From Bacteroidales bacterium (GTDB lineage Bacteria; Bacteroidota; Bacteroidia; Bacteroidales; ML635J-15): a stretch of DNA of 53,297 nucleotides. The notes below the pieces were generated by a model. That model saw only the letters and a program-made list of their open reading frames with translations, was not told the DNA's origin and made no database searches. A program made the position numbers and the translations under genes. Below, piece by piece: positions 16,856 through 37,671 of this stretch. How positions within the stretch are numbered: position 1 is the stretch's first letter; each line of letters begins with the position of its first letter. Location: the NCBI GenBank assembly GCA_028702675.1, contig JAQVOJ010000007.1, forward strand, positions 1 to 53,297, given 5' to 3'.

Positions 16856-16859
16856 AGTT

Positions 16860-17692: not shown

Positions 17693-17693
17693 T

Positions 17694-19480: not shown

Positions 19481-19486
19481 ATAACT

Positions 19487-19744
19487 ATGGACGAATTAAT
19501 TTTAAATTTAAAGCAGGAGATAATTGAAGTGTTAAATCTAGAAGATTTAAAACCTGAAGATATAGACGAAAATGCTCCTTTATTTGGCGAAGGTTTAGGA
19601 CTTGATTCTATTGATGCACTTGAGTTAATTGTTTTAATGGAAAAAGATTATGGCATAAAACTCGAAGATGCTAATCAAGGACGAGAAATATTTAAGTCTA
19701 TTGCTACAATGGCTGAATACATTAACAAGCACAGAAAGGATTAA
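19487..19744 (+). CDS. Acyl carrier protein, second copy
   Basis: An 85-residue acidic carrier with attachment serine S41 in GLDSIDALEL. It lies between the ApeC-like protein and the third ketosynthase, two bases from the latter, as the ApeE/ApeF carriers do in other polyene loci. Its helix II sequence differs from the ACP at 14608 (DSIDALELIV against DSLDFVDIVV), so the two carriers probably serve different partners, for instance starter loading versus extension. Confidence 0.95.
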   Translation: MDELILNLKQEIIEVLNLEDLKPEDIDENAPLFGEGLGLDSIDALELIVLMEKDYGIKLEDANQGREIFKSIATMAEYINKHRKD

Positions 19745-19746
19745 AT

Positions 19747-20940: not shown

Positions 20941-20947
20941 TATAAAT

Positions 20948-22018
20948 ATGCTAAACAAACCTATATATATTAATGGTGCTGCTGCAATATCAATTCAGGA
21001 ACCTTTGAATGAAACTGTTATTTATAATCCTCTAAATTATTCACAAGTTCATGTAAGGTGTATCGATCCTGTTTTTAAAGAGCATCTTAATCCTATTGCT
21101 GCTCGTAGAATGAGTCTGATTATAAAAAGAGCTATTATTACTGCCCGATATGCAGTAAAAATGGCAGAAATAGAAAAACCGGACGCTATTATTACAGGTA
21201 CCGGATTGGGTTGTGTGCAGGATACAGAAAAATTTCTCGAAGCTATGATACGTAACAAGGAGAAATTTCTGCAACCTGCTTTTTTTATACAGTCAACGCA
21301 CAATACTATTAGCTCTCAAATTGCAATTGACTTAAAATGTAAAGCTTATAACAATACATATATTCATCGTGGTGTATCATTCGAGAATGCCTTAATTGAC
21401 GCTTTGCTTCAGCTTAATAAACCCAAAATAGATTCTGCTCTAGTTACAGGAAACGATGAGATGACTCCTGCATATTTTAAATTACTTCAACGATTGAATT
21501 ATTGGAAAAATAGTGTGGACAGTTCTCTTAATATAGTTGATAGCGAAAATTCCATTGGTTCGTTTGCCGGCGAAGGTAGTGTTAGCTTAGTCTTGTCTAA
21601 AAATAAGATTAAAAATTCCTTTGCTACTATCAATGATATTAAATTGCATTATAATCCAAATGGTATAGATGAAAAGTTTATTGTGGATTTTTTGTTAAAA
21701 AACGGATTAAACACAGACGATGTTAGTTTATTTATTACCGGTGCTAACGGAGATTTCAATAATGATTTGGTTTATAAAAAGCTAGATAATCTATTTGATA
21801 ATAATAGAATAGGACATTACAAAAACATTTGCGGAGAGTTTTATACAGCTCCTGCATTTGGATTGTATGCTGCAGCTATTTGCTTAAAAAATAATACAGT
21901 ACCCAAAACAATGATGCTCTCAAACAATAATCTTAATAATATCAATAATATTTTATTTTATAATCATTTTCAGAATAGAGATCATTCACTAATTCTTTTA
22001 TCGAAATGTATAAATTAA
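20948..22018 (+). CDS. Degenerate ketosynthase, probable chain-length factor
   Basis: A 356-residue thiolase-fold protein keeping the ketosynthase frame (GAAAISIQEPL opening, AARRMSLIIKRA, GTGLGCVQDTEKFLE, THNTISSQIA). The active-site cysteine is absent: the nucleophile-elbow region reads YIHRGVSFENA. Neither histidine motif is kept; the places of HGTGTP and GH are taken by TGANGDFN and CGEFYTAPAFG. The length and order fit a chain-length-factor-like subunit for the ketosynthase just upstream. It overlaps the next small membrane protein gene by 13 bases. Confidence 0.78.
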   Translation: MLNKPIYINGAAAISIQEPLNETVIYNPLNYSQVHVRCIDPVFKEHLNPIAARRMSLIIKRAIITARYAVKMAEIEKPDAIITGTGLGCVQDTEKFLEAMIRNKEKFLQPAFFIQSTHNTISSQIAIDLKCKAYNNTYIHRGVSFENALIDALLQLNKPKIDSALVTGNDEMTPAYFKLLQRLNYWKNSVDSSLNIVDSENSIGSFAGEGSVSLVLSKNKIKNSFATINDIKLHYNPNGIDEKFIVDFLLKNGLNTDDVSLFITGANGDFNNDLVYKKLDNLFDNNRIGHYKNICGEFYTAPAFGLYAAAICLKNNTVPKTMMLSNNNLNNINNILFYNHFQNRDHSLILLSKCIN

Positions 22019-22359
22019 TATTTCTTGCAACAGTACAGTCCTTATTTCTTGTGTCATCACAAATTTTTTTAAAGCTTGCCACAGCACGAATGGGGAAGTT
22101 TAGTTTTACATTGGATTATTTTAAACAAGTTTTAGTTAATTGGCAACTAGCTTGTTCCGGAATATCAATTGTAATTGCAACAGTACTCTGGATGTATATT
22201 TTAAAACATTTTGAGTTTAGTGCAGCATACCCATTAATTAGTATAAGTTATATTTTTGGAATGCTTGCTGCTATGTTTATATTTCACGAAACAATTCCTA
22301 TTACCCGCTGGGTAGGGTTAGGCTTTATAATTCTTGGAGTGATTTTTGTCGTGAGATAG
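22006..22359 (+). CDS. Small four-helix membrane transporter (SMR/EamA-like)
   Basis: A 117-residue protein with four predicted membrane helices (about 3-22, 45-66, 72-92, 99-117). The second half, AAYPLISISYIFGMLAAMF then FHETIPITRW, is typical of half-size EamA/SMR proteins such as the ArnE/ArnF lipid-linked sugar flippase subunits. A small lipid or glycolipid flipping role would fit the glycosyltransferase encoded further on at 23976. No acidic residue of the EmrE type is seen in the first helix. Substrate unknown. Confidence 0.75.
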   Translation: MYKLIFLATVQSLFLVSSQIFLKLATARMGKFSFTLDYFKQVLVNWQLACSGISIVIATVLWMYILKHFEFSAAYPLISISYIFGMLAAMFIFHETIPITRWVGLGFIILGVIFVVR

Positions 22360-22381
22360 AGTTTTATTAAAAATTATAAGT

Positions 22382-23026
22382 ATGAAATTTACAAAAATCA
22401 TTACATCAATAATAGCTCTTTTATTTATAAGTTATTCTTATTCACAAACTTATGTTGCGGCTACTAACGAGCAAAAATCATCTCTTATTAAGTTAATTAA
22501 CGAAGCTTCTCAAAACACAAGAACACTTAAATGTGAATTTGAACAAGAAAAAACTGTTTCAATTCTGTCTGAAACAATCATTTCAAAAGGTGTAATGTAT
22601 TTTAAAAAAGAGAATAAACTTCGTTGGCAATACAATCAACCGTATCCTTATATATTTATTCTTGCTAATGGAAAAGTTACAATTAAAAACGATAATAGAA
22701 TAGATAATTTTGATACAAATTCGAATAAAATGTTTAAAACTATTAGTGAAATAATGATTGGGGGCGTAAATGGCGATTTGCTTAAAGACGAAAACAATTT
22801 TAAATCAGAAATATTAGTAGGAGATAACAATATTATAGTGAAATTGATTCCTCAATATAAAGACCTTGCTAAACTAATGAATACAATTACGCTTAGTATT
22901 AGTAAACAAGATTGGTTGGTAGAATCAATTGAAATGATAGAAACCGGTGGAGATAATACTTTAATCAAGTTCACAAATAAAATTGTTAATGCAGAAGTTA
23001 AAGACGATAAATTCATTATTAATTAG
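22382..23026 (+). CDS. LolA-like outer-membrane lipoprotein/lipid carrier (ApeL-like)
   Basis: A 214-residue periplasmic protein with signal peptide 1-21 (SYSYSQ). The LolA pattern is clear: LKCEFEQEKTVSILSETIISKG, then MYFKKENKLRWQY and PYPYIFILANGKVTI. The half-barrel would carry a hydrophobic moiety across the periplasm. LolA homologues are regular members of aryl-polyene loci, where they are thought to help deliver the polyene lipid to the outer membrane. The following lipoprotein gene starts inside its last 13 codons. Confidence 0.88.
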   Translation: MKFTKIITSIIALLFISYSYSQTYVAATNEQKSSLIKLINEASQNTRTLKCEFEQEKTVSILSETIISKGVMYFKKENKLRWQYNQPYPYIFILANGKVTIKNDNRIDNFDTNSNKMFKTISEIMIGGVNGDLLKDENNFKSEILVGDNNIIVKLIPQYKDLAKLMNTITLSISKQDWLVESIEMIETGGDNTLIKFTNKIVNAEVKDDKFIIN

Positions 23027-23600
23027 CATTTTACTTATTGTTTTTCTTGTAGGTGCCTGTAAAATAAGCCAACAGACAAATAGATATAACAATAATGCTA
23101 CAAGAATTTCGGCTTTACCTGTTATTGAAAATCAATTGATAAAACTAAAGACTAAAATAAAATTTAAAAAATCATTAATAAGTGGAATTACTGCATATAA
23201 GCTAAGCAACGACACAATAAGCGGAGTATTTATGAATGAGTTTGGAATTAAAGCTTTTGAATTTGTGATATATGAAGATAAATGCATTATTAATAACATA
23301 ATAAAACCTCTTGATAAATGGTATATCAGAAATACAATTAAAAGCGATTTTGAATTCATTTTTAATCGATTGTCCATTGATAATACAGATTACATAATAT
23401 ACAAATCAAGAGAGAATAAAAAGTGTTTTTATAGTTACTATTTTTCAGAAAACAATCTCTCAAAAGTCAAAAGGTTTAATCGAAAAAACCTTACAGGAAC
23501 TATTAAGTTACTATCAGACACAAGCATAATTGTAGAAAATTGTAAAAAAAATGTAGAATATAATTTTAACATTATAAATTACCATGAATTACGAAAATAA
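22989..23600 (+). CDS. Small lipoprotein of the polyene cluster (ApeN-like position)
   Basis: About 203 residues from the ATG at 22989; a TTG six bases earlier is less likely. The signal peptide (MQKLKTINSLLISILLIVFL) ends in a VGAC lipobox at about residue 24. The mature part is Lys/Asn-rich, mostly beta by eye, with no motif I recognise. Its place after the LolA gene, which it overlaps by 38 bases, is where other aryl-polyene loci encode a small lipoprotein (ApeN). It may be the LolB-like acceptor for LolA. Function is inferred only from position. It overlaps the next gene by 17 bases. Confidence 0.68.
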   Translation: MQKLKTINSLLISILLIVFLVGACKISQQTNRYNNNATRISALPVIENQLIKLKTKIKFKKSLISGITAYKLSNDTISGVFMNEFGIKAFEFVIYEDKCIINNIIKPLDKWYIRNTIKSDFEFIFNRLSIDNTDYIIYKSRENKKCFYSYYFSENNLSKVKRFNRKNLTGTIKLLSDTSIIVENCKKNVEYNFNIINYHELRK

Positions 23601-23979
23601 AAACTTTTTTAAAGACAATTTTTACTCTATTAAAAGAATCGAAAATAATGATTCAGGGTTTATAGCTCACATTCAGCTTAACGAGAAGCATTGGATATAT
23701 TCATCTCATTTTCCGGAAAATCCGATAACTCCAGGTGTTTGCTTGGTGCAAATAGCAAGAGAGCTAATTGTAATAAATCTTAAACAAAATTTGAATATAA
23801 CAACTGTTAAGAATATAAAATTTTTAAATATTATAGTTCCAGGCAAAAGCGATTTTATAACTTTTAAAATAGCAATAAAAAAAGACGAGGATGATGCAAA
23901 AATTAAAGCAAATATTGTAATTGAAGATTCTAAAATTGCTTATACAAAAATCAGTATGGTTTTAGACCCTAAATTATGA
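23584..23979 (+). CDS. 3-hydroxyacyl-ACP dehydratase-like hotdog protein
   Basis: A 131-residue hotdog domain with the FabZ-type catalytic segment SSHFPENPITPGV, giving catalytic histidine H42. The acidic partner of FabZ in the central helix (GVLILEAMAQ) is replaced here (GVCLVQIAREL, Q in place of E), as I recall for many Bacteroidota members of this group. It probably removes water from the 3-hydroxyacyl-ACP to make each trans double bond. The stop overlaps the glycosyltransferase start as ATGA. Confidence 0.8.
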   Translation: MNYENKNFFKDNFYSIKRIENNDSGFIAHIQLNEKHWIYSSHFPENPITPGVCLVQIARELIVINLKQNLNITTVKNIKFLNIIVPGKSDFITFKIAIKKDEDDAKIKANIVIEDSKIAYTKISMVLDPKL

Positions 23980-24761
23980 CAGTAAACACACAATATAAAG
24001 ATAGGTTCAACGAACTAAATGCATGCGTTTTAATTCCTACTTATAATAATGGTAAAACTTTAAACCAAGTTATTGATTCAGTTTTTTCTTACACCGATAA
24101 TGTTATTGTGGTAAACGACGGAAGTACCGATAATACGCACAAAATTCTTGAGGGATATGGTGATATTTTACATGTTATTTCGTATCAGAAAAACAAAGGG
24201 AAAGGCTTTGCTCTAAAAACAGGTTTTAAAATTGCACGAAATTTAGGTTTCAATTATGTAATTAGCATTGATTCAGATGGTCAGCACTATGCATCAGATT
24301 TACCTGTATTTATAGAAACAGTTGAAAAGCATCCCAATTCATTAGTAATTGGGAGTAGGGTTTTAAAACACGATAATATGTCGAAAGGAAGTACTTTTGC
24401 AAACCGTTTTTCTAATTTTTGGTTTACTGTGCAAACTTCTATGAAGTTACCCGATACACAGTCGGGATATAGAGCTTATCCATTAAACAAAATGGGTAAT
24501 ATGCCGATTTGGAGCAACAGGTACGAAGCCGAGCTGGAGATATTAGTGTTTTCGGCATGGAGAAGAATTAAAATAGTTCCTGTATCAATATCAGTTTATT
24601 ATGCTCCGCCATCCGAAAAAATATCGCATTTTAATCCTATTAAAGATTTTACAAGAATAAGTATATTAAATACATTGTTGGTTTTTACTTCAATACTTTA
24701 TGGATATCCGGCAATGGCTGTTAGGTATATTGTTTCTTTGTTTGTTGATGAAAAAAAATAA
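23976..24761 (+). CDS. Family 2 glycosyltransferase, dolichyl-phosphate-mannose-synthase-like (ApeJ-like)
   Basis: A 261-residue GT-A enzyme: ACVLIPTYNNGKTL, VVNDGSTDNT, a GKGFALKTGF loop, the metal-binding DSDGQH (D99, D101) and DTQSGYRAYPL near 160. A C-terminal hydrophobic stretch (about 228-252) may touch the membrane. It should transfer a sugar from a nucleotide sugar to a lipid carrier or to a lipid head group; in polyene loci a glycosyltransferase of this type is thought to build the lipid to which the polyene is attached. It follows the dehydratase with an ATGA overlap. The next gene is 81 bases on. Confidence 0.9.
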   Translation: MTVNTQYKDRFNELNACVLIPTYNNGKTLNQVIDSVFSYTDNVIVVNDGSTDNTHKILEGYGDILHVISYQKNKGKGFALKTGFKIARNLGFNYVISIDSDGQHYASDLPVFIETVEKHPNSLVIGSRVLKHDNMSKGSTFANRFSNFWFTVQTSMKLPDTQSGYRAYPLNKMGNMPIWSNRYEAELEILVFSAWRRIKIVPVSISVYYAPPSEKISHFNPIKDFTRISILNTLLVFTSILYGYPAMAVRYIVSLFVDEKK

Positions 24762-24842
24762 TATTATTTTGCTATTATTATTAATAGATAAATAAGAAAA
24801 TCATATAAATTATTAATTGGTTGATTACTACAATTTTAAACC

Positions 24843-25865
24843 ATGAATAAAAGAATTGATAAATTGAAAAATACTGGAAGTAGATACACGAAATTGACAG
24901 CATGTTTAATTATCTTGTTTTTTTCAACTCAATATGTATTTGCAGATGGTGTTAAGAACTTTCTATCTCCACATCCTTTTGGCGATTCTTATGTAAAGGA
25001 TATTGACAGTAAAATCGGTCTTTCGGCAGATTATAATATTAACTTTACAAATTTTGCCTTACTTGGTAATGATAAAACAAGACACTTTTCATACTTTCCT
25101 AATCTCAGAGGTATAATCACACTTGGTGCACGCTACAAGTTTTTTAGAATCTCTTATTCTTTTAATTTTAAAAATTCTACTGATTATAACGAATACTATG
25201 GTACTACCGATTATTTTAATTTTCAATTCGGAATTAAAACCAGAGCAGTTTGGTTGCAGTTTTATTATTCAAAGTATCATGGATTTTATTATACCGAAGA
25301 AGATATATGGTTTCCAAAATTTACTCTTGATTCAATATACCCACAAAACAACGACTTGTCTAGCTTTGAACTAGGATTGAAATCTAATATTATTTTTGAT
25401 ACCGATTTCTCTATGGAAGCCGCATTCGATTACACCGAAATACAAACTAAAAGTGCAGGGTCTTTTTATGTTTTAGTTAATCCTGAGATTAGTAATATCA
25501 AATCAGAAAATAAGGCAATAATTCCGGAAGAATATCAAGAGCATTATTCAGGACTCAAAGATTTTAATAAAGCATTTTTTGTTTCTTTTGCTACAGGGCT
25601 TGGTTATGGATATTCATTGATATTGGGACCTGTAAATTTTTCTAATACAGTATTTGCCGGACCTAATTTGCAAATCTACTCACATAATGGATTGCGAGTA
25701 AAACTACCATACGATTTAGCCTTTAAAAGTTCGCTAAGCTTAAATCTCGAGAATTTTTATACAGGTGCTATGGTTAGTCTCGATATCAACAATCATTATT
25801 TTGATAAAGACATAATTAGAAAAAAAATATTAGTGTTTACTTATAGAATGGGAATAAGATTATAA
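24843..25865 (+). CDS. DUF4421-like outer-membrane beta-barrel protein
   Basis: A 340-residue protein with a signal peptide ending near residue 35 (YVFADG). The mature part alternates short strands typical of a barrel, including PNLRGIITLGARYKFFRISYSF and LQFYYSKYHGFYY, which match what I recall of DUF4421 proteins of Bacteroidota. Residues about 205-240 are more polar and may be a surface loop. Its place between a glycosyltransferase and the MMPL exporter suggests an outer-membrane role in export or display of the polyene lipid. That role is inference. Confidence 0.68.
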   Translation: MNKRIDKLKNTGSRYTKLTACLIILFFSTQYVFADGVKNFLSPHPFGDSYVKDIDSKIGLSADYNINFTNFALLGNDKTRHFSYFPNLRGIITLGARYKFFRISYSFNFKNSTDYNEYYGTTDYFNFQFGIKTRAVWLQFYYSKYHGFYYTEEDIWFPKFTLDSIYPQNNDLSSFELGLKSNIIFDTDFSMEAAFDYTEIQTKSAGSFYVLVNPEISNIKSENKAIIPEEYQEHYSGLKDFNKAFFVSFATGLGYGYSLILGPVNFSNTVFAGPNLQIYSHNGLRVKLPYDLAFKSSLSLNLENFYTGAMVSLDINNHYFDKDIIRKKILVFTYRMGIRL

Positions 25866-25933: not shown

Positions 25934-28900
25934 ATGACAAAGCATATTATTAACATATACAGGTTTCTAAAAAAGCATAAATGGCTTAGAAGAGTAGGGT
26001 TGATTTCGCTTATCCTTTTTCTTGGATATTTTGCTTTGCATTTGTCTTTAGAAGAAGATATTGCTGGCTTTATGCCATCAGATGAGAGTAACGAGAGGAT
26101 CAATTATGTTTATAAAAATATTGGGATAGCAGAAAAAACAATCATCAAGTTTTCTTACGACGATAGTGTAAGCAATGAGTCAAAAAATATGCTTATAGAA
26201 GCAGCCGATAGTTTTGCTACCTATTTAAATTCTATAACTGTTGATAAAAATCTTGTTAAAGAAGTGTTTTATAAAATTGACCAACAAAAAATATTTGAAC
26301 TTACAGATTTTTTAACCTCAAATGCAGTTTACTATTTAGAAGATTCAGATTACGAATATATTGAGAGTATTTTAAACCCCGACAGTATTAGTTTAATTCT
26401 CGAAAATAATAAAAAACTTCTTATTTCACCTGCAGGAATGGTGCTAAAAAACCATATTATGGCAGACCCCTTGCACTTTACTACAGGGGCTCTGTCTCGA
26501 TTAAAAAGCTTGCAAGTAAGTAAACAGTATAATCTCTATAACGATTACATTTTTTCTTCAGACGAAACTTGCCTTTTTATGTTCATAACTTCAGAAAATC
26601 CTGTGAGTGAAACAAATCTAAACGAAGACTTAGTAAACTGTATTGAAAAATCTGTTAATCACGTTCTTGGAAATTATGATATTGATATTACATATTTTAG
26701 TCCGGCAGATGTTGCTGTTACCAATGCAAAACGAATAAAAAGGGATAGCTATTTGTCAATTATAATTGCTGTAATTTTAATATTGAGCTTGTTATTATGG
26801 TTTTTCCGAAGCATAAAATCAATATTGCTAATAGCTGTTCCTGTGGTGTTTGGAGCAATTATGGCTTTGGCAGCACTATTCTTTATTAAAGGAACTATTT
26901 CTGCAATAGCTATTGGCGCAGGTTCCATTATTTTTGGTATTGCATTAAATTATTCCCTGCATTATTTAATTCATGCAAAACATGGTATTAACCCCCAAAA
27001 TGTATTAAAAGACATTGCCTCTCCAATGATAGTAGGAAGCATTACTACTGTAAGTGCATTTTTAAGTTTACTCTTTATTAGTGCAGAATCAATGAGGGAT
27101 TTTGGTTTGTTTGCTGCTTTTACTTTAACAGGTACACTAATTTTTGTAATAGTGTTTTTGCCTCATATAACTACAAATAGTGGTAAAGAATTTAGCAATA
27201 AGCATCTAGAATTTATTGATAAAATATCTTCTTATAGGTTAGATAAAAACAAATGGGTTTTGTGGTTAATTGCTGTTTTAACTCCACTATTTATTTATTT
27301 TTCTTTCGATGTGAGTTTCGAAAGCGAAATGAATAAAATTAACTATATGACAAAAGATCAAAAAGAATCATTTAATAGATTAAGCAATTTTACAAGTTTG
27401 GGCGAAAAATCAATGTACCTAATTGCTGATGATACTGGACTTGATGCTGCAATTGAGCAATACGAGGGGCTTAAAACCCAAATAGATTCTTTAGTAAATA
27501 AAGGAGTTGTTACAAATGTTGCAGGAATTGGTTCTTTTTTGCCTTCGGCAAAAATGCAAGAACAAAAAATAAACCGATGGAATGAGTTTTGGCATAATAG
27601 AAGAGATATATTAATGAATTTATTACTGCAACAAGGGACGGAACTTGGTTTTAAAGAAGAGGCTTTCGATAAGTTCAAAAAAATGCTTTATGCTGATTAT
27701 AATATAGAGCAAGTTGAGTATTTCGAAATAATTACAGAAAATTACCTTAAAGATTATTTAATAACAAAAGAAAACAGAGCAATGGTAATTACATTGCTTA
27801 ATGTTAGCCCCGAAAATTCAGATATTGTTTCGCAAGTTTTAACCAAAGATAAAAGTTTTGTGTTCGATTCTGGTAGCATTGCTCAATCGCTAGTAAATAC
27901 TCTGAAAAACGATTTCAATAAAGTTTTGTATATCTGCAGCTTTTTGGTGTTATTGTTTTTAACTTTATCTTTTGGCAGACTAGAGTTAAGCTTAATAGCC
28001 TTTCTTCCTATGCTTATCAGTTGGCTATGGATACTTGGACTTATGGCTGTGTTTAATATTAGTTTTAATATTGTAAATATTATTTTAGCCACATTTATAT
28101 TCGGACTTGGAGACGATTACACAATATTTATGATGGAAGGTGCTATGAGCGAATATTCTACAAGCCGAAAACTTCTCACTTCCTATAAAACCGCCGTTGC
28201 ATTGTCGTCTATTACAATGTTTATCGGAATTGGAACTTTAGTATTCGCTAAGCATCCAGCAATGCGTTCTTTAGCAGATGTTACAATTATCGGAATGTTT
28301 TCGGTAGTTTTAATGTCTTTTGTTATCCCACCATTGCTTTTTAGTATTATTACAAATAAAAATGGGAAAAAACGACTTATTCCGGTTACGTTTATCAATT
28401 TCTTTGCTACGCTTTATAGTTTTATTGTATTCTTAATAGGGTCATTTTTCTTAAATACTTATGGTTTTTTTCTGTTTAATTTTGGCGGAAAAACGAAGAA
28501 AAATAAATTTAGGTATCATAAAGCAATTAATGCCGTAACAACTTTGGTAGCCAATAATATTCCTATGGTTGAATATGAACTTAAAAATACTGCAAACGAA
28601 GATTTTTCAAAACCCGGAATTATTATTAGCAACCATCAATCGCATATAGATTTAATGTTTATTTTATCTCTATCTCCTAAAGTGGTAATTCTTACTAACG
28701 AATGGGTTTGGAAATCACCATTTTACGGACGTTTAGTAAAATACGCTGATTTCTACCCTGTGGCAAATGGAGTTGAAAATAGTCTTGATAAACTTAAAGC
28801 TTTAATTGATGACGGTTATTCAATTATGATATTTCCCGAAGGAACCCGCTCCGAAGATTGTTCTATTCTAAGGTTTAAAAAAGGAGCATTCTATTTAGCA

Positions 28901-29620
28901 GAAAAGTTTAATTTAGATATAATCCCAGTTGTAACTCACGGAATAGGACATGCCTTACCTAAAAAAGAAATGCTCTTACGAAAAGGGAAGGTAACAGTAC
29001 AAATTCTTGATAGAATTGAACCTAACGATTTTTCTTTTGGTAAAGATTATTCCCAACGTTCAAAAAATATTCGTAAGCTCTATAAAAAAGAGTATAAGAA
29101 ACTTGCAAATATTAACGAAACGGCTTCATATTATAAGAGCCTTGTAATACATAATTACATTTATAAAGGTCCTATAATAGAGTGGGAAACAAGACAAATT
29201 TTAAAAAAGTATAATAATTTTGAGCCGATAATCAATATATTACCCAATAAAGGACAGGTTTTGATTCCAAATTGTAATTATGGAGTATTTAGCTTAATTT
29301 GTGCATTAGTTAAAAAAGATTTGCTGATTATTGCTTCTGATAAAAGCATTGATAAACTTGATATTGCCAGAAATTGTATCTCGATACCAAAAAATCTTAC
29401 TTATATTGATTATAATGAATCTGAAATTATTCAAGATTATAATGCTATCGTATTGCAGAATACAGATATAAAAGAATTTGAAGAGTATTGTGTGAAGTAC
29501 TATGCATCAACTGTTTATATGATAAGCGATATCTCAGATATAAATGTTTTAATTTCAGACAAGATTAAAATAGTGAATTGTAAAAATTTTAATATAGTAA
29601 TTAGAGCGGTAAATGAATAA
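25934..29620 (+). CDS. MMPL/RND exporter fused to a PlsC acyltransferase and a methyltransferase-like tail (ApeM-like)
   Basis: A 1228-residue fusion. Residues about 15-860 are an RND/MMPL lipid exporter with two copies of helix, periplasmic loop and helix bundle; the second bundle has FGLGDDYTIFM, an acidic proton-relay-like motif near 725. Residues about 880-1060 are a lysophospholipid acyltransferase with NHQSHID (H901, D906) and FPEGTRSE (967-973). Residues about 1090-1228 recall a Rossmann methyltransferase (GQVLIPNCNYGVFSLICAL) but without the glycine-rich motif, so it is probably inactive. It would flip or export the aryl-polyene lipid while its acyltransferase acts at the inner face. 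Overlaps the next gene by eight bases. Confidence 0.85.
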   Translation: MTKHIINIYRFLKKHKWLRRVGLISLILFLGYFALHLSLEEDIAGFMPSDESNERINYVYKNIGIAEKTIIKFSYDDSVSNESKNMLIEAADSFATYLNSITVDKNLVKEVFYKIDQQKIFELTDFLTSNAVYYLEDSDYEYIESILNPDSISLILENNKKLLISPAGMVLKNHIMADPLHFTTGALSRLKSLQVSKQYNLYNDYIFSSDETCLFMFITSENPVSETNLNEDLVNCIEKSVNHVLGNYDIDITYFSPADVAVTNAKRIKRDSYLSIIIAVILILSLLLWFFRSIKSILLIAVPVVFGAIMALAALFFIKGTISAIAIGAGSIIFGIALNYSLHYLIHAKHGINPQNVLKDIASPMIVGSITTVSAFLSLLFISAESMRDFGLFAAFTLTGTLIFVIVFLPHITTNSGKEFSNKHLEFIDKISSYRLDKNKWVLWLIAVLTPLFIYFSFDVSFESEMNKINYMTKDQKESFNRLSNFTSLGEKSMYLIADDTGLDAAIEQYEGLKTQIDSLVNKGVVTNVAGIGSFLPSAKMQEQKINRWNEFWHNRRDILMNLLLQQGTELGFKEEAFDKFKKMLYADYNIEQVEYFEIITENYLKDYLITKENRAMVITLLNVSPENSDIVSQVLTKDKSFVFDSGSIAQSLVNTLKNDFNKVLYICSFLVLLFLTLSFGRLELSLIAFLPMLISWLWILGLMAVFNISFNIVNIILATFIFGLGDDYTIFMMEGAMSEYSTSRKLLTSYKTAVALSSITMFIGIGTLVFAKHPAMRSLADVTIIGMFSVVLMSFVIPPLLFSIITNKNGKKRLIPVTFINFFATLYSFIVFLIGSFFLNTYGFFLFNFGGKTKKNKFRYHKAINAVTTLVANNIPMVEYELKNTANEDFSKPGIIISNHQSHIDLMFILSLSPKVVILTNEWVWKSPFYGRLVKYADFYPVANGVENSLDKLKALIDDGYSIMIFPEGTRSEDCSILRFKKGAFYLAEKFNLDIIPVVTHGIGHALPKKEMLLRKGKVTVQILDRIEPNDFSFGKDYSQRSKNIRKLYKKEYKKLANINETASYYKSLVIHNYIYKGPIIEWETRQILKKYNNFEPIINILPNKGQVLIPNCNYGVFSLICALVKKDLLIIASDKSIDKLDIARNCISIPKNLTYIDYNESEIIQDYNAIVLQNTDIKEFEEYCVKYYASTVYMISDISDINVLISDKIKIVNCKNFNIVIRAVNE

Positions 29621-31109
29621 GTACGATGTAATAATTATTGGTTCAGGACTTGGTGGATTGTTAAGTGCGTATATACTTAGCAAAAATGGGATGAAAGTAT
29701 TAGTTCTTGAAAAAAACAACCAAATTGGAGGTTGTTTACAGACTTTTACTTATGCCGGCGAAAAGTTTGATACAGGAATGCATTATATCGGAAGTGTAGA
29801 AGATGGTCAAATACTTTACAGGTTTTTTAAATATTTCTCATTACTCAACGATGTTAATTTGCGTAAATTAGATACAGAAGCATACGATACTATTTCGATT
29901 ATAGATAAAACTTATGACTATGCGATGGGTTTTGACCGATTTATCGATAAAATGTCGGGGTATTTTCCAAACGAAAGGGAAAACATTAAAAACTATATCA
30001 ATAAAATTAATTTAATAGCAAGTAAATCCCCGCTATATAATTTGAATGAGATTAATAGTCAGGTTTTGCTAAATATTGATTCCATAAAATTAAGTGTTAA
30101 CGAATTTATTGATTCAATCACAACTAATACAGAACTTCGTAAAGTATTAGCCGGAAACCTACCTTTGTATGGTGGAATAAAAAACATTACACCTTTATAT
30201 ATTCATGCACTTATTCAAAAGTTTTATATAAATAGTGCCTATAGAATTGTAGGAGGAAGCGATAGTATTTCTAAATCATTATACAAATCGATAATTGGTT
30301 TTGGTGGTAAGGTATTAACTAATTCCGAAGTGGTAAAGATTAATTGCAATACAGAAAAAGCAGTTTCAGTATGTCTTAAAAATGGTGAAATTCTCGAAGG
30401 AAATAGTTTTATTTCAAATATGCATCCTTACGAAATATTAAGAATGTTGGATACACATCTTATTCGTAATGCTTATCGACAAAGAATTACAAGTCTCAAT
30501 AACACAATTTCAAATTTTACTATTTACATTAAATTCAAACCTAATACTGTAAAATATTATAATACAAACTTTTATCATTATAACACACCCGATGTTTGGG
30601 GATGCGAAAACTATAATCTTGAAAATTGGCCTTGTAATTTTTTATTTATGCATCAAGCACCCAAAGATAACTCAAACTATGCCACAAGTGCTGTATTAAT
30701 AGCCTATATGCGTTTCGAGGAAGTAGAAAAATGGAAACATACATTCGTTAAAAATCGAGGCAATGATTACAAAGAATTTAAAATAAATAAATCAAAAATA
30801 TTACTAAATGAATTAGAAAAAAAATTCCCAGGCATAAATTCAAATATAGAATCATATACTTGCTCATCGCCACTAACTTATCGTGATTATACCGCCACAA
30901 AAGATGGTTCTATGTATGGAATATTAAGAGATAAGAATTCTCCGATACAATCATTAGTATCACAAAAAACTAAAATTCCAAATTTATTTATGACCGGACA
31001 AAATATAAATTCGCATGGAATACTTGGTGTAACTATTGGTGCATTAATTACTTGTGCAGAATATTTGGGGATGAACTATTTAATAAAACAAATTAAAAAT
31101 GGCGGATGA
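29613..31109 (+). CDS. FAD-dependent oxidoreductase, retinol-saturase/phytoene-desaturase-like (first copy)
   Basis: A 498-residue flavoenzyme with the N-terminal dinucleotide motif IIGSGLGGLLSA (8-19), EKNNQIGGC, and FDTGMHYIGS, which is the pattern of all-trans-retinol 13,14-reductase and carotenoid isomerase proteins. The C-terminal FAD segment LFMTGQNINSHGILG is near 455-470. These enzymes reduce, desaturate or isomerise conjugated polyenes, so an aryl polyene is a sensible substrate. The gene product downstream is a paralogue, joined by an ATGA overlap. The direction of the reaction cannot be predicted from sequence. Confidence 0.85.
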   Translation: MNKYDVIIIGSGLGGLLSAYILSKNGMKVLVLEKNNQIGGCLQTFTYAGEKFDTGMHYIGSVEDGQILYRFFKYFSLLNDVNLRKLDTEAYDTISIIDKTYDYAMGFDRFIDKMSGYFPNERENIKNYINKINLIASKSPLYNLNEINSQVLLNIDSIKLSVNEFIDSITTNTELRKVLAGNLPLYGGIKNITPLYIHALIQKFYINSAYRIVGGSDSISKSLYKSIIGFGGKVLTNSEVVKINCNTEKAVSVCLKNGEILEGNSFISNMHPYEILRMLDTHLIRNAYRQRITSLNNTISNFTIYIKFKPNTVKYYNTNFYHYNTPDVWGCENYNLENWPCNFLFMHQAPKDNSNYATSAVLIAYMRFEEVEKWKHTFVKNRGNDYKEFKINKSKILLNELEKKFPGINSNIESYTCSSPLTYRDYTATKDGSMYGILRDKNSPIQSLVSQKTKIPNLFMTGQNINSHGILGVTIGALITCAEYLGMNYLIKQIKNGG

Positions 31110-32617
31110 GTAAATCATGTTTAATTATTGGTGGCGGAATAGGTGGGCTTGTTACAGCTTGTCTTCTTGCAAAAGAAGATTATAAAATCACTATTCTGGA
31201 ACAACATTATATTATTGGCGGAGGATTGCATTGTTTTCATAAAAATGGTGTAATGTTCGAAACCGGAATACATTACATTAGTGGCTTTCAAGAAGGAGGT
31301 GTTTTAAATAAAATATTTAAATATCTTAATATTGAGGAACATTTAAAAATTAAAAACCTTGATACTAACGGTTTTGATATTGTTCATATAGGAAGCGACA
31401 ATAGTATTATTAAAATGGGTATAGGGAAAGATAATTATATAAAGATTTTATCTGAAAAATTCCCTGAAGAACTTGAAAATATTCAAGCCTATATAGATGA
31501 CCTATATAAAATTACAGATGCTTTCCCTCTATATAATCTTAAAACAGATAGTAAAAATTTATGGTATTTCGATCAGAAGTTTTTAACGCCTGTAGGAACG
31601 TATATAGAACAATATGTAAACGATATTAAATTACAATCAATTCTTGCTTATAATAATTGTTTATATGCCGGCGAAAAATATAACACTCCAATATTCTTAC
31701 ATGCTTTAATTACAAAGTTTTATATTGAGGGAGCTTCTCGGTTTATTGATGGTAGTCAGCAACTTGCAGATGCAATGGTAAAGTTTATTGAGAGCAAAGG
31801 AGGCAGGGTCTATACTTCGGCTAAGGTAGTTAAAGTAAATGTTGAAAATAAAAAAGTTTTAAATGTTGTAACTGAAGATAATCGTAGCTTTGAATCCGAT
31901 TGTTATATTTCAGGAATACATCCTTCTAATTTACTTAAAATGATTGACCAAAAACAAGTACAGCGATCATATAGAGAGAGATTGAAATCTATAAAGAATA
32001 CATATTCTGTTTTTACAATGTTTGTAAGTTTTAAACCAAAAAGTTTTAAGTATCTTAATAGCGTGTATTATTATTTTAATGATTATAGTAATGTTTGGGG
32101 TGCTGTTGATTATACTGACGAAACTTTTCCTCCGGGCTTTATGTTAATTACACCCCCCGAAAAAAATCAAGGTGCATTTGCAAGCAAAGCTATTATAAAT
32201 TGTATGATGAATTTTGATAAAGTAAAAAAATGGGAACATACTGTTTTGGGTAATCGAGATCAGTCTTATTATGATTTTAAAAAAATGTATCAGGATAAGC
32301 TAATCGAAAAGATTTCCGAAGTATTCCCTGAGTTTAAAAATTCGATAAAAGATGTTTTTTCTTCTACGCCTTTAACAATTAGGGATTATTTAGGTTCAAA
32401 AGAAGGCTCATTATACGGATATAAAAAAGAAAGCTCTGATATTGTAAAGTCGCAAGTATTGCCACGCACAAAAATTGAGAACCTTTTATTAACAGGTCAA
32501 AACATAAATTTGCATGGAATTATGGGAGTACCTTTAGGCTCTATAATAACAGCAGGTGTATTATTAGGAGTAGAAAATATTGTAAATAAGATAAATCAAG
32601 CTAATTTTGTAGAATAA
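31106..32617 (+). CDS. FAD-dependent oxidoreductase, retinol-saturase/phytoene-desaturase-like (second copy)
   Basis: A 503-residue paralogue of the preceding protein. It keeps IIGGGIGGLVTACLL, EQHYIIGGG, FETGIHYISG and LLLTGQNINLHGIMG, and shares the central TP-x3-HALI-x-KFYI block. The two differ widely elsewhere, so this is an old duplication or a heterodimer pair, not a recent copy. The likely role is redox or isomer tailoring of the conjugated chain. A radical SAM enzyme gene follows after 15 bases. Confidence 0.85.
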   Translation: MSKSCLIIGGGIGGLVTACLLAKEDYKITILEQHYIIGGGLHCFHKNGVMFETGIHYISGFQEGGVLNKIFKYLNIEEHLKIKNLDTNGFDIVHIGSDNSIIKMGIGKDNYIKILSEKFPEELENIQAYIDDLYKITDAFPLYNLKTDSKNLWYFDQKFLTPVGTYIEQYVNDIKLQSILAYNNCLYAGEKYNTPIFLHALITKFYIEGASRFIDGSQQLADAMVKFIESKGGRVYTSAKVVKVNVENKKVLNVVTEDNRSFESDCYISGIHPSNLLKMIDQKQVQRSYRERLKSIKNTYSVFTMFVSFKPKSFKYLNSVYYYFNDYSNVWGAVDYTDETFPPGFMLITPPEKNQGAFASKAIINCMMNFDKVKKWEHTVLGNRDQSYYDFKKMYQDKLIEKISEVFPEFKNSIKDVFSSTPLTIRDYLGSKEGSLYGYKKESSDIVKSQVLPRTKIENLLLTGQNINLHGIMGVPLGSIITAGVLLGVENIVNKINQANFVE

Positions 32618-32632
32618 TTTAATATAAGTAAT

Positions 32633-33910
32633 ATGATATTTAAACTAATATATCCAAAATGGAAGAAACTTGAAGGGCAAACAACATTTACTTTACCACC
32701 TCACGGGCCTGTTGTAATGGCAGCTTCGCTACCATCATACGTTGATGTTTCTTTTGTTGACGAAAATGTCGAAGAAATAAACTTTGACGAAGACTGTGAT
32801 TTTGTTGGAATCTCAATGATGCTGAGCACACAGGTAAAAAGAGGTTGGGCAATTGCTGAGGAGTATCGTAAAAGAGGTATAAAAGTAATTTTCGGTGGAA
32901 TTTCTACTATGCTACATGCCGAAGAAACTCTGCAATATGCAGATTCTATATTTCTAGGCGAAAGCGAAGGTAAAATGGAAGAGGTTTTTACGGATTTTAA
33001 AAATAATTCCCTTAAAAAAGTTTATAACCACATGAACAATCGCCCCCCGATTGAAATAGTAGGACCGGCAAGACGTGATATTCTTAAACGCGAACTTTAC
33101 AATCATAAGGGTGTGCAAATGGTTGACTTATTTCACGCTTCAAGAGGGTGTAGATTTAATTGCTATCCATGTGCCGTAGCTTTTCTTGGCGGTAGAGAAT
33201 TTAGACCTAGACCTATAGATAAAGTGCTTGAAGAACTTGAAACTATTGAAAACAATAGACTTTTTATAGTTGATAACTCTTTAGCTCAAAGCACCGAATG
33301 GGAAATGGACTTATTCCGAAATATGATACCGATGAAGAAAAAATGGATAAGCCACACAATCGAAGATAATCCAAAAGTTCTGGATTTAGCTGCACAAGCC
33401 GGAGCATGGTATGTCTATCAAGCTGTTTTCGATACATCAGATTATATAAAAGAAAGAATAAAACGATACCACGATTATGGCATTGGAGTAGAAGGTACAA
33501 TATTACTAGGACTTGATAATCAAAGCGAAGATGATATTAAACGACTAATCGATTTCTTGCTTGAAATTGATTTGGATTTAGCAGAGTTTACTGTGCTTAC
33601 TCCATTTCCACATACTAAAGTATATGACGATTTTAAAAGACAAAATCGTATTTTTGATACAAATTGGGATAATTATAATGCCGATACAGTTGTTTATCAG
33701 CCTGCACAAATGAGCCCCGAAAGATTACATGAATTATATCGATATGCATGGGATATGTTTTATAAAGATGAAACTCAAGAACAAAAAATGTTCAAGCTCT
33801 TTACAAAAGTTGTGCTTAGAGAAATGCAGGATAATACATATAAACCACGAAACAGAGACTTAGCAAACCATTCATTCGGAAAAAAAGTTGTAAGAAATAG
33901 AATTGATTAA
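32633..33910 (+). CDS. Cobalamin-binding-domain radical SAM enzyme
   Basis: A 425-residue enzyme. Residues about 25-135 are a B12-binding Rossmann domain (DFVGISMMLSTQV, VIFGGISTMLHAEE, IFLGESEG) lacking the DxHxxG histidine, as in base-off BchE/HpnJ-like proteins. Residues about 165-370 are the radical SAM barrel with the cluster-binding CxxxCxxC at C173, C177 and C180, then EGTILLGLDNQSEDD near 286 and a TVLTPFPHTKVY segment. This class does methylations, cyclisations and C-C bond changes on unreactive carbons. Here it probably tailors the aryl ring or the polyene chain; its exact reaction is unknown. A short unknown protein is encoded six bases on. Confidence 0.87.
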   Translation: MIFKLIYPKWKKLEGQTTFTLPPHGPVVMAASLPSYVDVSFVDENVEEINFDEDCDFVGISMMLSTQVKRGWAIAEEYRKRGIKVIFGGISTMLHAEETLQYADSIFLGESEGKMEEVFTDFKNNSLKKVYNHMNNRPPIEIVGPARRDILKRELYNHKGVQMVDLFHASRGCRFNCYPCAVAFLGGREFRPRPIDKVLEELETIENNRLFIVDNSLAQSTEWEMDLFRNMIPMKKKWISHTIEDNPKVLDLAAQAGAWYVYQAVFDTSDYIKERIKRYHDYGIGVEGTILLGLDNQSEDDIKRLIDFLLEIDLDLAEFTVLTPFPHTKVYDDFKRQNRIFDTNWDNYNADTVVYQPAQMSPERLHELYRYAWDMFYKDETQEQKMFKLFTKVVLREMQDNTYKPRNRDLANHSFGKKVVRNRID

Positions 33911-33915
33911 TAGCA

Positions 33916-34287
33916 ATGAAAATTCAAAAGAAAGATGTTGATATAATTTTTGATTTTAAAGGCTTGTGGGATATGCCTTCAAAATGCGGTCTAAAAATAT
34001 ATCACAAAAAAGATAAAACAGTAGTAATTGTTACTGAACTGTATAAAGAAAACTCAGGTACTTCTATTACAGACGTAACAGTATCGCTTGCAAAACAAAT
34101 TTGTGAAAAATATGCCATAGAACCAGAGAAATTGATTTATATCGAAAGAAATCCCGAAACAAACTCAAAACTAAGCTTTTATTCAGAAAAAAACTATCAA
34201 GTTAGTTTTGATATCGAAGATGGAAACATTTCAAACCCTTCTTATATCGAAGTATCTGCTGATGATTTAAAAGAATTACTAGACTAA
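33916..34287 (+). CDS. Unknown 123-residue protein of the polyene cluster
   Basis: No family recognised. It is a soluble-looking acidic/basic mix with no signal peptide or membrane helix. A beta-strand-rich start (VDIIFDFKGLWD, then TVVIVTELYKENSG) is followed by a helix (VTVSLAKQICEKYA) and more strands. Only one cysteine early and one later, so no metal motif is evident. It follows the radical SAM gene by five bases and a candidate promoter follows it, so it belongs to the upstream transcript and may be a partner of that enzyme. That pairing is inference. Confidence 0.6.
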   Translation: MKIQKKDVDIIFDFKGLWDMPSKCGLKIYHKKDKTVVIVTELYKENSGTSITDVTVSLAKQICEKYAIEPEKLIYIERNPETNSKLSFYSEKNYQVSFDIEDGNISNPSYIEVSADDLKELLD

Positions 34288-34330: not shown

Positions 34331-35194
34331 ATGAAACGATATATATTTGTAAGAATTTTGCTTGCATTTAGTTTTTGTTTAACAGCTAATAGTGATTCAT
34401 TCAATATTTGGAGTGAAGTTGATTCTGTAGTTGACTTTAAAGCTAAGCTCCATGTTTTTAAAGCAGATTCATCTTTTAATAATCATAAAGCAATTATTAT
34501 TTGTCCGGGAGGTAGCTATCACCATTTAGGCATGAAACACGAAGGGTTTGAAGTTGCTAAGTGGTTAAATACCTTAGGATTTAATGCATTTGTTTTGCAA
34601 TATAGAGTTGGAGTAAAGGGATGGAGACACCCTGCAATGATACAAGATTTGCAAAGAACGATTCAAGTACTGAGAGAAAATCCCAATAAATATGAAATAA
34701 ACCCAAATTCAATCGGATTAATGGGCTTTTCTGCTGGTGGACATTTAGTGGGTATAGCTTCAATTTACTATGAAACAAACTATTTAGAAGAATTAGGCAT
34801 TTTCCCAAATGTATCTCTTAAACCTGATTTTTCAGTTCTAGTGTATCCTGTAGTATCTATGCAAGATAGTTTAGTACACAAACGTTCTCGTAAAAACTTA
34901 CTAGGAAAAAATCCCAAAAAGCAATTAATCGATAAATTTTCGTTAGCAGAAAATATACACAAGAACATCTCTCCAATGCTTATTATACATTGTAAAGACG
35001 ATAATGTTGTAGATTATAAAAATAGCTATTACTTATATTCACACCTTAAATCTTTGAATGGTCTTGTCGATTTAGTTTTATACAAAGTGGGAGGTCATGG
35101 CTTTGGACTTAAAAACAACAAAGATATTGTTAATGAATTTAAAAAAGATTTAGTTGAATGGTTTTTCAAATTAGGAATATTAGTTAATAAATAA
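34331..35194 (+). CDS. Secreted alpha/beta-hydrolase esterase (BD-FAE/lipase_3-like)
   Basis: A 287-residue hydrolase with a signal peptide (about 1-21). The oxyanion region CPGGSYHHLGMKHEG is followed by the nucleophile elbow GFSAGGH with S134, an aspartate in KDDNVVD near 222 and the histidine in GGHGFGL near 256, so the catalytic triad is complete. The fold matches acetyl-esterase-like carbohydrate esterases often called endo-1,4-beta-xylanase-like. In this locus an ester-acting enzyme in the periplasm could trim or transfer the polyene ester. Substrate unknown. The next gene starts five bases after the stop. Confidence 0.82.
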   Translation: MKRYIFVRILLAFSFCLTANSDSFNIWSEVDSVVDFKAKLHVFKADSSFNNHKAIIICPGGSYHHLGMKHEGFEVAKWLNTLGFNAFVLQYRVGVKGWRHPAMIQDLQRTIQVLRENPNKYEINPNSIGLMGFSAGGHLVGIASIYYETNYLEELGIFPNVSLKPDFSVLVYPVVSMQDSLVHKRSRKNLLGKNPKKQLIDKFSLAENIHKNISPMLIIHCKDDNVVDYKNSYYLYSHLKSLNGLVDLVLYKVGGHGFGLKNNKDIVNEFKKDLVEWFFKLGILVNK

Positions 35195-35198: not shown

Positions 35199-36533
35199 AT
35201 GAATACTATTAATAAACTTATACCCGAAATAGAAAAAGAGAGTTTAACGGTAATTAAAAAATATCAAGAAAGACAGCTTCCCAAGGTATTAGAATATCTT
35301 AATGAACGCTCTACTTATTATAAAAGACTTTTTTCTAACAATAAAATTAATATTAATAGAATAAAAACTCTTGAAGACTTAACACACATCCCTTTTACCG
35401 ATAAATCAGATTTACAGACAAATAATGCAGATTTTTATTGTGTTGAAAAAGAAAAGATTGTAGATTACATAACTACTTCGGGAACCTTAGGCGATCCGGT
35501 AACATTTGCAATGACAGATAAAGACCTTGACCGGTTAGCCTACAACGAAGCAATATCTTTTGCATGTGCCAATGGAAAACCTGGCGATATATACCAACTA
35601 ATGACTACTATAGACAAAAGATTTATGGCAGGATTAGCATATTTTTTGGGTATAAGAAAACTTGGTGCAAGTATTATTAGAGTTGGCAATGGAATACCCG
35701 AATTACAATGGGACAGCATAATGCGTATTTCTCCAGACACAATTGTTGTAGTCCCTTCATTTATTCTTAAAATTATTAAATATGCCGAAGAAAACGGAAT
35801 TGATTATAAAAATACTAGCATTAAAAAAGCTGTTTGTATAGGCGAAAATCTGAGAGAACAAGATTTTTCATTAAACCTGCTTGGACGAAAAATTAAGGAG
35901 AAGTGGGACATTGAACTATATTCAACATATGCCTCTACCGAAATGGCAACCAGTTTTACTGAATGCTCGGCAGGAAAAGGCGGACATCATCATCCCGAGT
36001 TAATTATAACAGAATTAATAGACGAGAATGGAAACCCTGTGAAAGAAGGTGAAGAAGGCGAACTTGTTATTACAACAATAGGAGTGGAGGCAATGCCTTT
36101 GCTCAGATTTAAAACCGGAGATATTGCAAAATTCTATAACGATCCATGTAGTTGTGGACGTACTTCAAAGCGTATAGGTCCTATTATTGGACGAAAAAAT
36201 CAAATGATAAAATATAAAGGCACAACATTATATCCTGCTGCAATTTTTGATGTTCTCGATAATATTGAGTATATTGACCATTATTTTGTTGAAGTAAAAA
36301 CTGATGATAACGGAAATGATGATATTGATATTATTGTTCAAAAAAGCAATAAGGAATCATTAAACGAAAATGTATTCAAAAAAGAATTGAAAGATAGATT
36401 TAGAGCAAAGCTTAGGGTTGCTCCAAATGTTAAAACAATGACAGAAAAGGAAATACTTAAAATATGTGCACCTGAAATTAAACGAAAACCTGTAAAATTT
36501 ATTGATAAACGTAATATTACTAACCATGAATAG
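35199..36533 (+). CDS. PaaK-type acyl-AMP ligase (aryl-acid activation, ApeH role)
   Basis: A 444-residue adenylate-forming enzyme of the phenylacetate-CoA ligase/F390-synthetase type. Motifs: TTSGTLGDPVTFAMT near 92-106 (phosphate loop), YASTEMATSFTEC near 246 (A5 region), GELVITT near 288, LLRFKTGDIAKF near 300 (A7) and a GRKNQMIKYKGTTLYP segment near 330. The CSCGRTSKR stretch may bind zinc. It is well placed to activate 4-coumarate from the ammonia-lyase and load it on CoA or ACP. It overlaps the next gene by eight bases. Confidence 0.85.
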   Translation: MNTINKLIPEIEKESLTVIKKYQERQLPKVLEYLNERSTYYKRLFSNNKININRIKTLEDLTHIPFTDKSDLQTNNADFYCVEKEKIVDYITTSGTLGDPVTFAMTDKDLDRLAYNEAISFACANGKPGDIYQLMTTIDKRFMAGLAYFLGIRKLGASIIRVGNGIPELQWDSIMRISPDTIVVVPSFILKIIKYAEENGIDYKNTSIKKAVCIGENLREQDFSLNLLGRKIKEKWDIELYSTYASTEMATSFTECSAGKGGHHHPELIITELIDENGNPVKEGEEGELVITTIGVEAMPLLRFKTGDIAKFYNDPCSCGRTSKRIGPIIGRKNQMIKYKGTTLYPAAIFDVLDNIEYIDHYFVEVKTDDNGNDDIDIIVQKSNKESLNENVFKKELKDRFRAKLRVAPNVKTMTEKEILKICAPEIKRKPVKFIDKRNITNHE

Positions 36534-37671
36534 AGATAATTTTGACGACCTAAGGCCATACCACGATGATGAAATTAATTCTGCTATGCAAAGAATAGCT
36601 GATAACCCATTAATTTCTAAAGTAGCCGATTTTTTGTATCCTGATGTACAAATTGCTGATTTGAAAAATATGCTCAGGAATATTACGACAATCAGAGAAT
36701 TCCAAAAGCAGGTAATGCATCATGCTATAAATAAAATCATTAAAAAATCAATAACAAATTTTTCCTTTAATGGTTTCGAGAATTTGGAAAAAGATAGAGC
36801 ATATATTTTTATCTCAAATCATAGGGATATTCTCTTAGATTCTGCATTATTGCAAATTGCACTTGACGAGAATGGTTTTAATACCTCCGAAATTACTTTT
36901 GGTAGTAATTTAATGGTTTCGGATTTTGTTGTAGATATTGGGAAATCAAATAAAATGTTTAAAGTTATTAGGGGAGGAACTCCTCGAGATTTTTATAAAA
37001 ATTCTTTAAGATTATCACAGTATATAAGGCACGCAATTACTGAAAAAAATGAATCTATTTGGATTGCTCAAAGAAATGGTAGAACAAAAGATGGAAATGA
37101 TAAAACGGACCAAGGTATAATTAAAATGTTTGCAATGAGCAGCGATAAAGTGCTGAATGAGAACATTTTAGAATTAAATATTGCACCTATGGTAATTTCG
37201 TATGAATGGGAAACTTGCGATGCTGCAAAGCTCAAAGAACTTTATGTGTCAAGAACTCAAAAATATGTAAAAGCTCCCGGCGAAGATTTAAATAGTATTC
37301 TTACTGGCATTACACAATTTAAAGGCAATGTTCATATTGAGATTACACAACCCCTAAAAGACGAAGAACTTGTTGGGTTAAAAAACATGGATAAACATGA
37401 AATGTATAATTATATAACTAATTTAATTAACACTAGGATACACACAAATTACAAATTCTGGAAAACAAATTATATTGCTTTCGATATTGAAAATAATTCA
37501 ACGGAGTATTTGAATAAAAAATACACAAAATCTGATTTGGAAAGTTTTGTTGATAGAATGGAAAATACAATAAATAAAATTGAGGGAAATAAATCAGATA
37601 TTAAAAGCATTTATTTAGGAATTTATTCAAATCCCATTAAAAACATAAAACGCAATAATTATATAAAATGA
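36526..37671 (+). CDS. PlsB-like glycerol-3-phosphate/lysophospholipid acyltransferase family protein
   Basis: A 381-residue protein read from the ATG at 36526; a TTG eight codons earlier lies in the preceding gene and is less likely. The acyltransferase block ISNHRDILLDSALLQIAL near 95 carries the histidine and aspartate of the family, later IRGGTPRDFYKN near 144 and IWIAQRNGRTKDG near 180 take the place of the usual FPEGTRS. No signal peptide. It may move an acyl or aryl-polyenoyl group to a glycerolipid. It is the third acyltransferase domain in this cluster and the last clear gene of it. Confidence 0.8.
   Translation: MNRDNFDDLRPYHDDEINSAMQRIADNPLISKVADFLYPDVQIADLKNMLRNITTIREFQKQVMHHAINKIIKKSITNFSFNGFENLEKDRAYIFISNHRDILLDSALLQIALDENGFNTSEITFGSNLMVSDFVVDIGKSNKMFKVIRGGTPRDFYKNSLRLSQYIRHAITEKNESIWIAQRNGRTKDGNDKTDQGIIKMFAMSSDKVLNENILELNIAPMVISYEWETCDAAKLKELYVSRTQKYVKAPGEDLNSILTGITQFKGNVHIEITQPLKDEELVGLKNMDKHEMYNYITNLINTRIHTNYKFWKTNYIAFDIENNSTEYLNKKYTKSDLESFVDRMENTINKIEGNKSDIKSIYLGIYSNPIKNIKRNNYIK

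Follow-up and report, generated by a model that had tools for sequence, protein, structure and literature searches.

Four adjacent genes (positions 29613 to 34287) in a window of 53,297 nucleotides, the whole stretch analysed, from contig JAQVOJ010000007.1 of an anaerobic, gut-type Bacteroidales bacterium (GCA_028702675.1) lie within what appears from its gene content to be a 27-kb aryl-polyene/flexirubin-type operon (~11034 to 37668). They encode two flavoproteins (FAD1 and FAD2), a radical S-adenosylmethionine (SAM) enzyme (rSAM, 32633-33910) and its 123-residue neighbour (p123). Locus comparisons show that rSAM and p123 form an optional, co-inherited two-gene module, and we read the stretch as the tailoring and anchoring end of the operon, in which rSAM and p123 would use radical chemistry, C-methylation perhaps, to tailor an aryl polyene, a reading on which our confidence is evenly poised.

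The first-pass annotation had described the four genes as lying in a row with gaps of at most 15 bases, which is correct: the junctions are a 4-base overlap (FAD1/FAD2), 15 bases (FAD2/rSAM) and 5 bases (rSAM/p123), all on the + strand. Its view of them as a single tailoring cassette had to be given up, since FAD1 is a core gene, FAD2 also occurs without rSAM (in genomes G373 and G595; G and L numbers denote compared genomes and loci) and only rSAM and p123 behave as a unit. The four open reading frames are the following.

29613..31109, +, FAD1, CrtD/CrtISO/RetSat-like flavoprotein, a conserved flexirubin core gene (498 residues; model matches, relatives after the MMPL exporter, tree)
31106..32617, +, FAD2, second flavoprotein, in a separate Bacteroidales paralogue clade (503 residues; tree, presence in the rSAM-less loci of G373 and G595)
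32633..33910, +, rSAM, predicted radical SAM enzyme with an N-terminal B12-type Rossmann domain and C173/C177/C180 (425 residues; Pfam, alignment, structure)
33916..34287, +, p123, small candidate partner protein (123 residues; no Pfam or NCBIfam match, co-occurrence with rSAM)

Few bacterial pigments are as widespread as aryl polyenes. The rSAM gene with its strictly co-inherited p123 occurs in some operons and is missing from others that otherwise match, a natural with/without comparison from which a tailoring step, and what a new family of small proteins does, could be learned. Once the core gene FAD1 is set aside from the special part, the rSAM-p123 pair remains as the real puzzle of this operon, and it probably leaves an additional chemical mark on the pigment.

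Distribution of rSAM and co-inheritance with p123

Searches for rSAM, FlxY and DarB covered 344 Bacteroidales genomes, with a wider set of 392 genomes of the phylum; the window's own genome (G000, 3.09 Mb) is 98.9% complete. An rSAM orthologue was found in 36 of the 344 genomes, FlxY in 87 and DarB in 40. FlxY was present in 32 of the 36 genomes with rSAM vs 55 of the 308 without it (Fisher p ~1e-17, which among genomes related by descent, here as below, measures association and not independent events). In the remaining four rSAM genomes, without a FlxY match (G526, G603, G587 and G433), the rSAM contig also encodes FAD1 and a C45-type protein, and in three of them p123 as well; the G433 contig ends within rSAM. 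The 80 closest rSAM matches in GTDB genomes, 75-86% identical, came nearly all from Bacteroidales. The phylum-wide set held no orthologue beyond the window genome, other matches being at most 34% identical, and none was found in the 33 FlxY-bearing genomes outside Bacteroidales.

A profile of p123 was used to search 80 genomes, 34 with rSAM and 46 of flexirubin type without it, and p123 was detected in 32 of the former vs none of the latter (p ~3e-20); G414 and G506 are the two rSAM genomes without it. Dozens of Bacteroidales loci repeat the order rSAM-p123, mostly preceded by FAD genes and followed by FlxY, and the arrangement is therefore not due to chance. The association also holds where the genes are apart. 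In Tannerella forsythia (G688), the rSAM gene is on contig 1 (C1) beside DarA, DarB, DarG and DarH, and p123 on contig 216 (C216) beside FlxY, while in L043 and L067 p123 is found beyond FlxY and AT2, on the opposite strand. Such co-inheritance even without adjacency is good evidence for a shared function of rSAM and p123. Conversely, G373 keeps the order MMPL-FAD1-FAD2-BDFAE-FlxY-AT2 but has no rSAM-p123. Across the well-covered loci and genomes compared, the module accompanies aryl-polyene or dialkylresorcinol genes.

Several rSAM-p123 loci show further genes. In about 24 of them (L034:11710-12282 and ~23 others) a conserved protein of ~190 residues with a signal-peptide-like start and no Pfam match is encoded, often between p123 and the BD-FAE esterase, a position in which it was not seen in the window. 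The Marinilabiliales-type loci L060, L076, L077 and L079 have rSAM-p123 flanked by sulfotransferase-like, extra acyl carrier protein (ACP), ACPS-like and FabD-like genes, so there the module may have a dedicated substrate bound to a carrier. Downstream of p123 in G526 (L142:6073-10585) are thioesterase-like, two enoyl-CoA hydratase-like, divergent ketosynthase III and another B12-type radical SAM gene, which suggests an extended tailoring set. Four tandem DarH-like (BtrH-related) genes occur near the locus in L073 (8056-12278), and a contig binned as Treponema (L069:819-2490) encodes rSAM and p123 relatives 77% and 47% identical, by transfer or mis-binning.

Features of rSAM and p123

The CX3CX2C motif of rSAM (C173/C177/C180), already pointed out in the first-pass annotation, is invariant in an alignment of 40 orthologues, in which mean column identity reaches 84%. 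With this motif in a predicted TIM-barrel domain, rSAM can be placed in the radical SAM superfamily on the basis of the structure model. Both the B12-binding and the Radical_SAM models of Pfam were matched by 40/40 orthologues; the window protein itself exceeds the B12-binding cut-off (PF02310) by 0.4 bits (32.5 vs 32.1) and narrowly misses that of Radical_SAM (29.2 vs 29.5). The B12 domain first proposed thus stands as a B12-type Rossmann domain, in weaker form than originally stated given the marginal score and AprD4 as the closest fold.

None of the curated B12 radical SAM family models was matched by rSAM above its cut-off, including BchE (45.8 vs 481 bits), HpnJ (46.7 vs 578), HpnR (34.7 vs 650), the ladderane-type TIGR04072 (44.5 vs 360), and TIGR04013 (56.5 vs 251); its score against NF033070, the model of the AprD4 family, was likewise below the cut-off (23 vs 500). 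No functional hint came from the closest Bacteroidota radical SAM proteins outside the orthologue group (30-34% identical), which likewise fall in no curated family. The rSAM structure model (predicted local distance difference test score, pLDDT, 77.9; low confidence around 164-189) resembles, beyond its best match, TsrM (Z 18.4), CysS (17.6) and OxsB (17.4).

No match to p123 was found in Pfam or NCBIfam. Its model (pLDDT 84.8) has the order beta-beta-beta-alpha-beta-beta-beta-alpha, for which Foldseek returned nothing at E <= 0.001 and VIA a best Z of only 5.7 (histidine racemase domain). Its invariant residues include G16, C24, G25, L26, L42, N46, G48, T52, E77, P80, L86, F88 and E91. It may be a partner subunit, a substrate presenter or a second enzyme.

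The flavoproteins FAD1 and FAD2

The motifs that had been noted in the flavoproteins are indeed present, FDTGMHYIG in FAD1 and FETGIHYIS in FAD2, and may point to a likeness to retinol saturase (RetSat). Scores against the CrtD model (113 bits for FAD1 and 133 for FAD2, cut-off 550) and the carotenoid isomerase CrtISO model (103 and 95 bits, cut-off 587) are far below the cut-offs, so that the two proteins are relatives within the carotenoid-desaturase/isomerase/RetSat-like superfamily and not members of the CrtD or CrtISO families; the earlier assignment as RetSat-like flavoenzymes is retained at the superfamily level.

In the majority of the canonical-type (Flavobacterium-type) loci compared, including those of G174, G314, G226, G300, G238, G586, G558 and G487, a FAD1 homologue (37-46% identical, several with FDTGIHYIG) comes immediately after the MMPL exporter; in G308 FAD1 lies apart from the exporter. 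By this comparison FAD1 is a standard core gene of flexirubin loci and therefore gives no evidence for an unusual product, of which the first-pass annotation had taken it as a sign. The available text of PMC3992019 assigns no role to a FAD1-like protein. In the comparison across Bacteroidota polyene clusters that had been proposed as a check, FAD1 is fixed in canonical loci, and rSAM and p123 are absent from them.

A tree of 66 proteins puts FAD2 in a distinct 15-row clade (100/100 support), all members of which are from Bacteroidales and which lies apart from FAD1; FAD2 is accordingly a Bacteroidales-only paralogue. Judging from their superfamily, FAD1 and FAD2 most likely reduce, desaturate or isomerise polyene C=C bonds. 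That the operon makes a polyene which undergoes a carbon modification is a reasonable inference.

The operon and its likely end product

FlxA and FlxY of the window operon score above their curated cut-offs. Besides the four genes, the operon and its annotation comprise:

11034..12593, +, FlxA, tyrosine ammonia-lyase, polyene starter (NF053541, 819 bits, cut-off 700)
12617..25865, +, polyene core and export genes: FabG, three ketosynthase (KS)-type, two ACP, dehydratases, thioesterase, EmrE-like, LolA-like, GT2, DUF4421
15767-16855, +, FlxJ-like methyltransferase (FlxJ model 530 bits, below the cut-off of 560)
25934..29620, +, MMPL/RND exporter fused to an acyltransferase domain, preceding FAD1 (Pfam MMPL, Acyltransferase; same position in canonical flexirubin loci)
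34331..35194, +, BD-FAE-type esterase, at the site of the C45-type autoproteolytic acyltransferase/hydrolase of canonical loci (Pfam BD-FAE; locus comparison)
35199..36533, +, FlxY, acyl-CoA ligase, 4-coumarate activation (NF053551, 707 bits, cut-off 520)
36502..37671, +, AT2, acyltransferase-like, last operon gene (weak Pfam Acyltransferase; conserved after FlxY)

As in the flexirubin (flx/dar) clusters known from Chitinophaga pinensis and Flavobacterium johnsoniae (PMC3992019), the operon has FlxA, FlxY, FabG, several KS, ACP, dehydratase, thioesterase, LolA, GT2 and an MMPL exporter, the last followed by FAD1 (a CrtI/RetSat-type flavoprotein) as in the canonical-type loci of G174, G314, G300, G238 and G558. 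It differs from those described clusters in the BD-FAE esterase in place of the C45-type protein, in the added FAD2, rSAM and p123, and in the lack of DarB from its genome. With the gammaproteobacterial aryl-polyene cluster ApeA-R of E. coli (PMC8253772) it shares ACPs, KS, dehydratases, ketoreductase, thioesterase, acyltransferase, glycosyltransferase/acyltransferase, LolA, RND exporter and methyltransferase, as well as the absence of dialkylresorcinol genes; unlike ApeA-R it starts with tyrosine ammonia-lyase and FlxY, and the parts of its gene table considered list no such flavoprotein and no radical SAM enzyme. Among the papers searched we found neither a report linking flexirubin with radical SAM nor a description of aryl-polyene products of anaerobic Bacteroidales. 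Relative to known flexirubin and aryl-polyene clusters, then, the rSAM-p123 module appears to be the novel addition, in a genome where DarB, expected for flexirubin proper, was not detected.

The search of the window genome for DarB gave only weak FabH-like matches and none to NF005293 at E <= 1e-80 (DarA was not searched separately), which makes a classical flexirubin ester unlikely; 26 of the 36 rSAM genomes, the window's included, likewise have no DarB. Because GT2, AT2, the LolA-like protein and the MMPL-acyltransferase resemble gammaproteobacterial attachment and export genes (PMC8253772), a lipid or glycolipid anchor can be supposed, and the polyene, once complete, is probably linked to such a lipid instead of a dialkylresorcinol.

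Directly before FlxA (7920-10793) are genes for a binding protein, a FecCD/BtuC-type permease and an ATPase, for which B12 and iron-siderophore uptake are both possible.

Possible reactions and alternative explanations

In the mechanism that we favour, rSAM would bind a [4Fe-4S] cluster at C173/C177/C180, cleave SAM and modify the aryl polyene, while still on its carrier or just after release, and p123 would be a dedicated partner that might present the substrate, deliver electrons or complete the reaction. Since the module occurs with or without DarB and with either BD-FAE or C45-type genes nearby, the aryl polyene is most likely the common substrate. Reactions of cobalamin-dependent radical SAM enzymes include methylation, ring contraction, ring formation and thioether formation (PMC13331322). 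If the Rossmann domain of rSAM holds cobalamin, the likeliest single reaction would be C-methylation of the polyene chain or the aryl head, the main alternative being a cobalamin-free radical dehydration or rearrangement; our first guess is C-methylation and our second dehydration or deoxygenation. A more far-reaching proposal, which we advance only tentatively, is that rSAM-p123 represents a new two-component radical system that adds an undescribed group (an extra C-methyl, a ring or a deoxygenation) to the aryl polyenes made by anaerobic Bacteroidales of the gut, rumen and mouth, including Tannerella forsythia, and that p123 founds a new partner family.

Several observations weigh against the mechanism that we favour. 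The best fold match of rSAM is AprD4, a diol dehydratase (Z 25.7 over 361 residues, with MgmA next at 19.5), the B12-binding score is marginal and the predicted active-site region, 164-189, is of low confidence in the model. With no recognisable fold in p123, its partner role is argued from co-occurrence, and the descent shared by the genomes means that the Fisher p values overstate independence. The BtuC-like permease and ATPase upstream of the operon (9019-10793) match BtuC/Fec models with scores under the curated cut-offs, and the search for a cobalamin riboswitch gave none.

AprD4 is not known to use cobalamin, and a B12-like domain alone is therefore no proof of cobalamin use by rSAM. It is conceivable, if unlikely, that rSAM is likewise cobalamin-free and strips a hydroxyl from the sugar or lipid anchor of the polyene or from a hydroxylated chain intermediate, p123 or a flavoprotein completing the reduction. 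AprD4 (6FD2) clearly leads the structural matches and is the sole profile match to rSAM among PDB sequences, with the same B12-type Rossmann domain and radical SAM barrel, a similar length and no C-terminal extra domain, and the operon does include a GT2 glycosyltransferase; yet AprD4 is just 16% identical to rSAM and comes from an aminoglycoside pathway, all orthologues match the B12-binding model, and GT2 is also present in canonical loci without rSAM. The cobalamin-dependent radical SAM enzymes MgmA, TsrM, CysS, OxsB and TokK are similar to rSAM in domain order and fold as well (Z ~13-20), and the hidden Markov model matches of rSAM to HpnJ, BchE and HpnR are weak, all far under the family cut-offs. 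Rather improbable is an ordinary flexirubin cluster in which all four genes are standard and rSAM is an accessory without consequence for the product (for example, maintenance under anoxia): FAD1 is standard and rSAM has many orthologues among Bacteroidales loci, but rSAM is missing from 55 of the 87 FlxY-bearing Bacteroidales and from all 33 FlxY genomes of other orders, and it is strongly conserved and inherited together with p123.

An action of rSAM on the dialkylresorcinol branch, as alkylresorcinol tailoring, would fit the Tannerella-type loci L012 (10001-14804), L064 and L075, where DarA and DarB come immediately after rSAM (with DarG and DarH as well in L012), and G506, where DarA adjoins rSAM. 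We disfavour it as quite improbable, given that DarB was not found in most carriers and that among FlxY genomes it is rarer with rSAM (10/32) than without (27/55). The candidate ladderane clusters of anammox bacteria also combine type II fatty acid synthesis genes (FabF/ACP/FabZ) with phytoene-desaturase-like and B12 radical SAM proteins (PMC2649909, PMC4790861), from which one might picture flavoproteins preparing the unsaturation and rSAM starting a radical cyclisation of the polyene. This seems very improbable: the bacteria and products are unrelated, the weak TIGR04072 match is far under the family cut-off, the flavoprotein is also found in ordinary flexirubin loci without cyclised products, and the assignment of ladderane genes is itself unproven.

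FlxJ and a second radical SAM protein

The distribution of the ring methyltransferase FlxJ shows no clear replacement by rSAM, FlxJ being present in 17 of the 34 rSAM genomes vs 33 of the 46 without rSAM (p 0.06, not decisive); its coexistence with rSAM in half of the carriers argues against a simple replacement. A different radical SAM protein of ~452-459 residues is encoded between AT1 and the first dehydratase, which is the FlxJ site in the window, at L077:567-1925 (-), L139:4523-5881 (-), L039:3447-4805 (-, split) and the G586 locus (L120/L121). FlxJ was not found in G586 and G477, and this protein may be an alternative aryl methylase.

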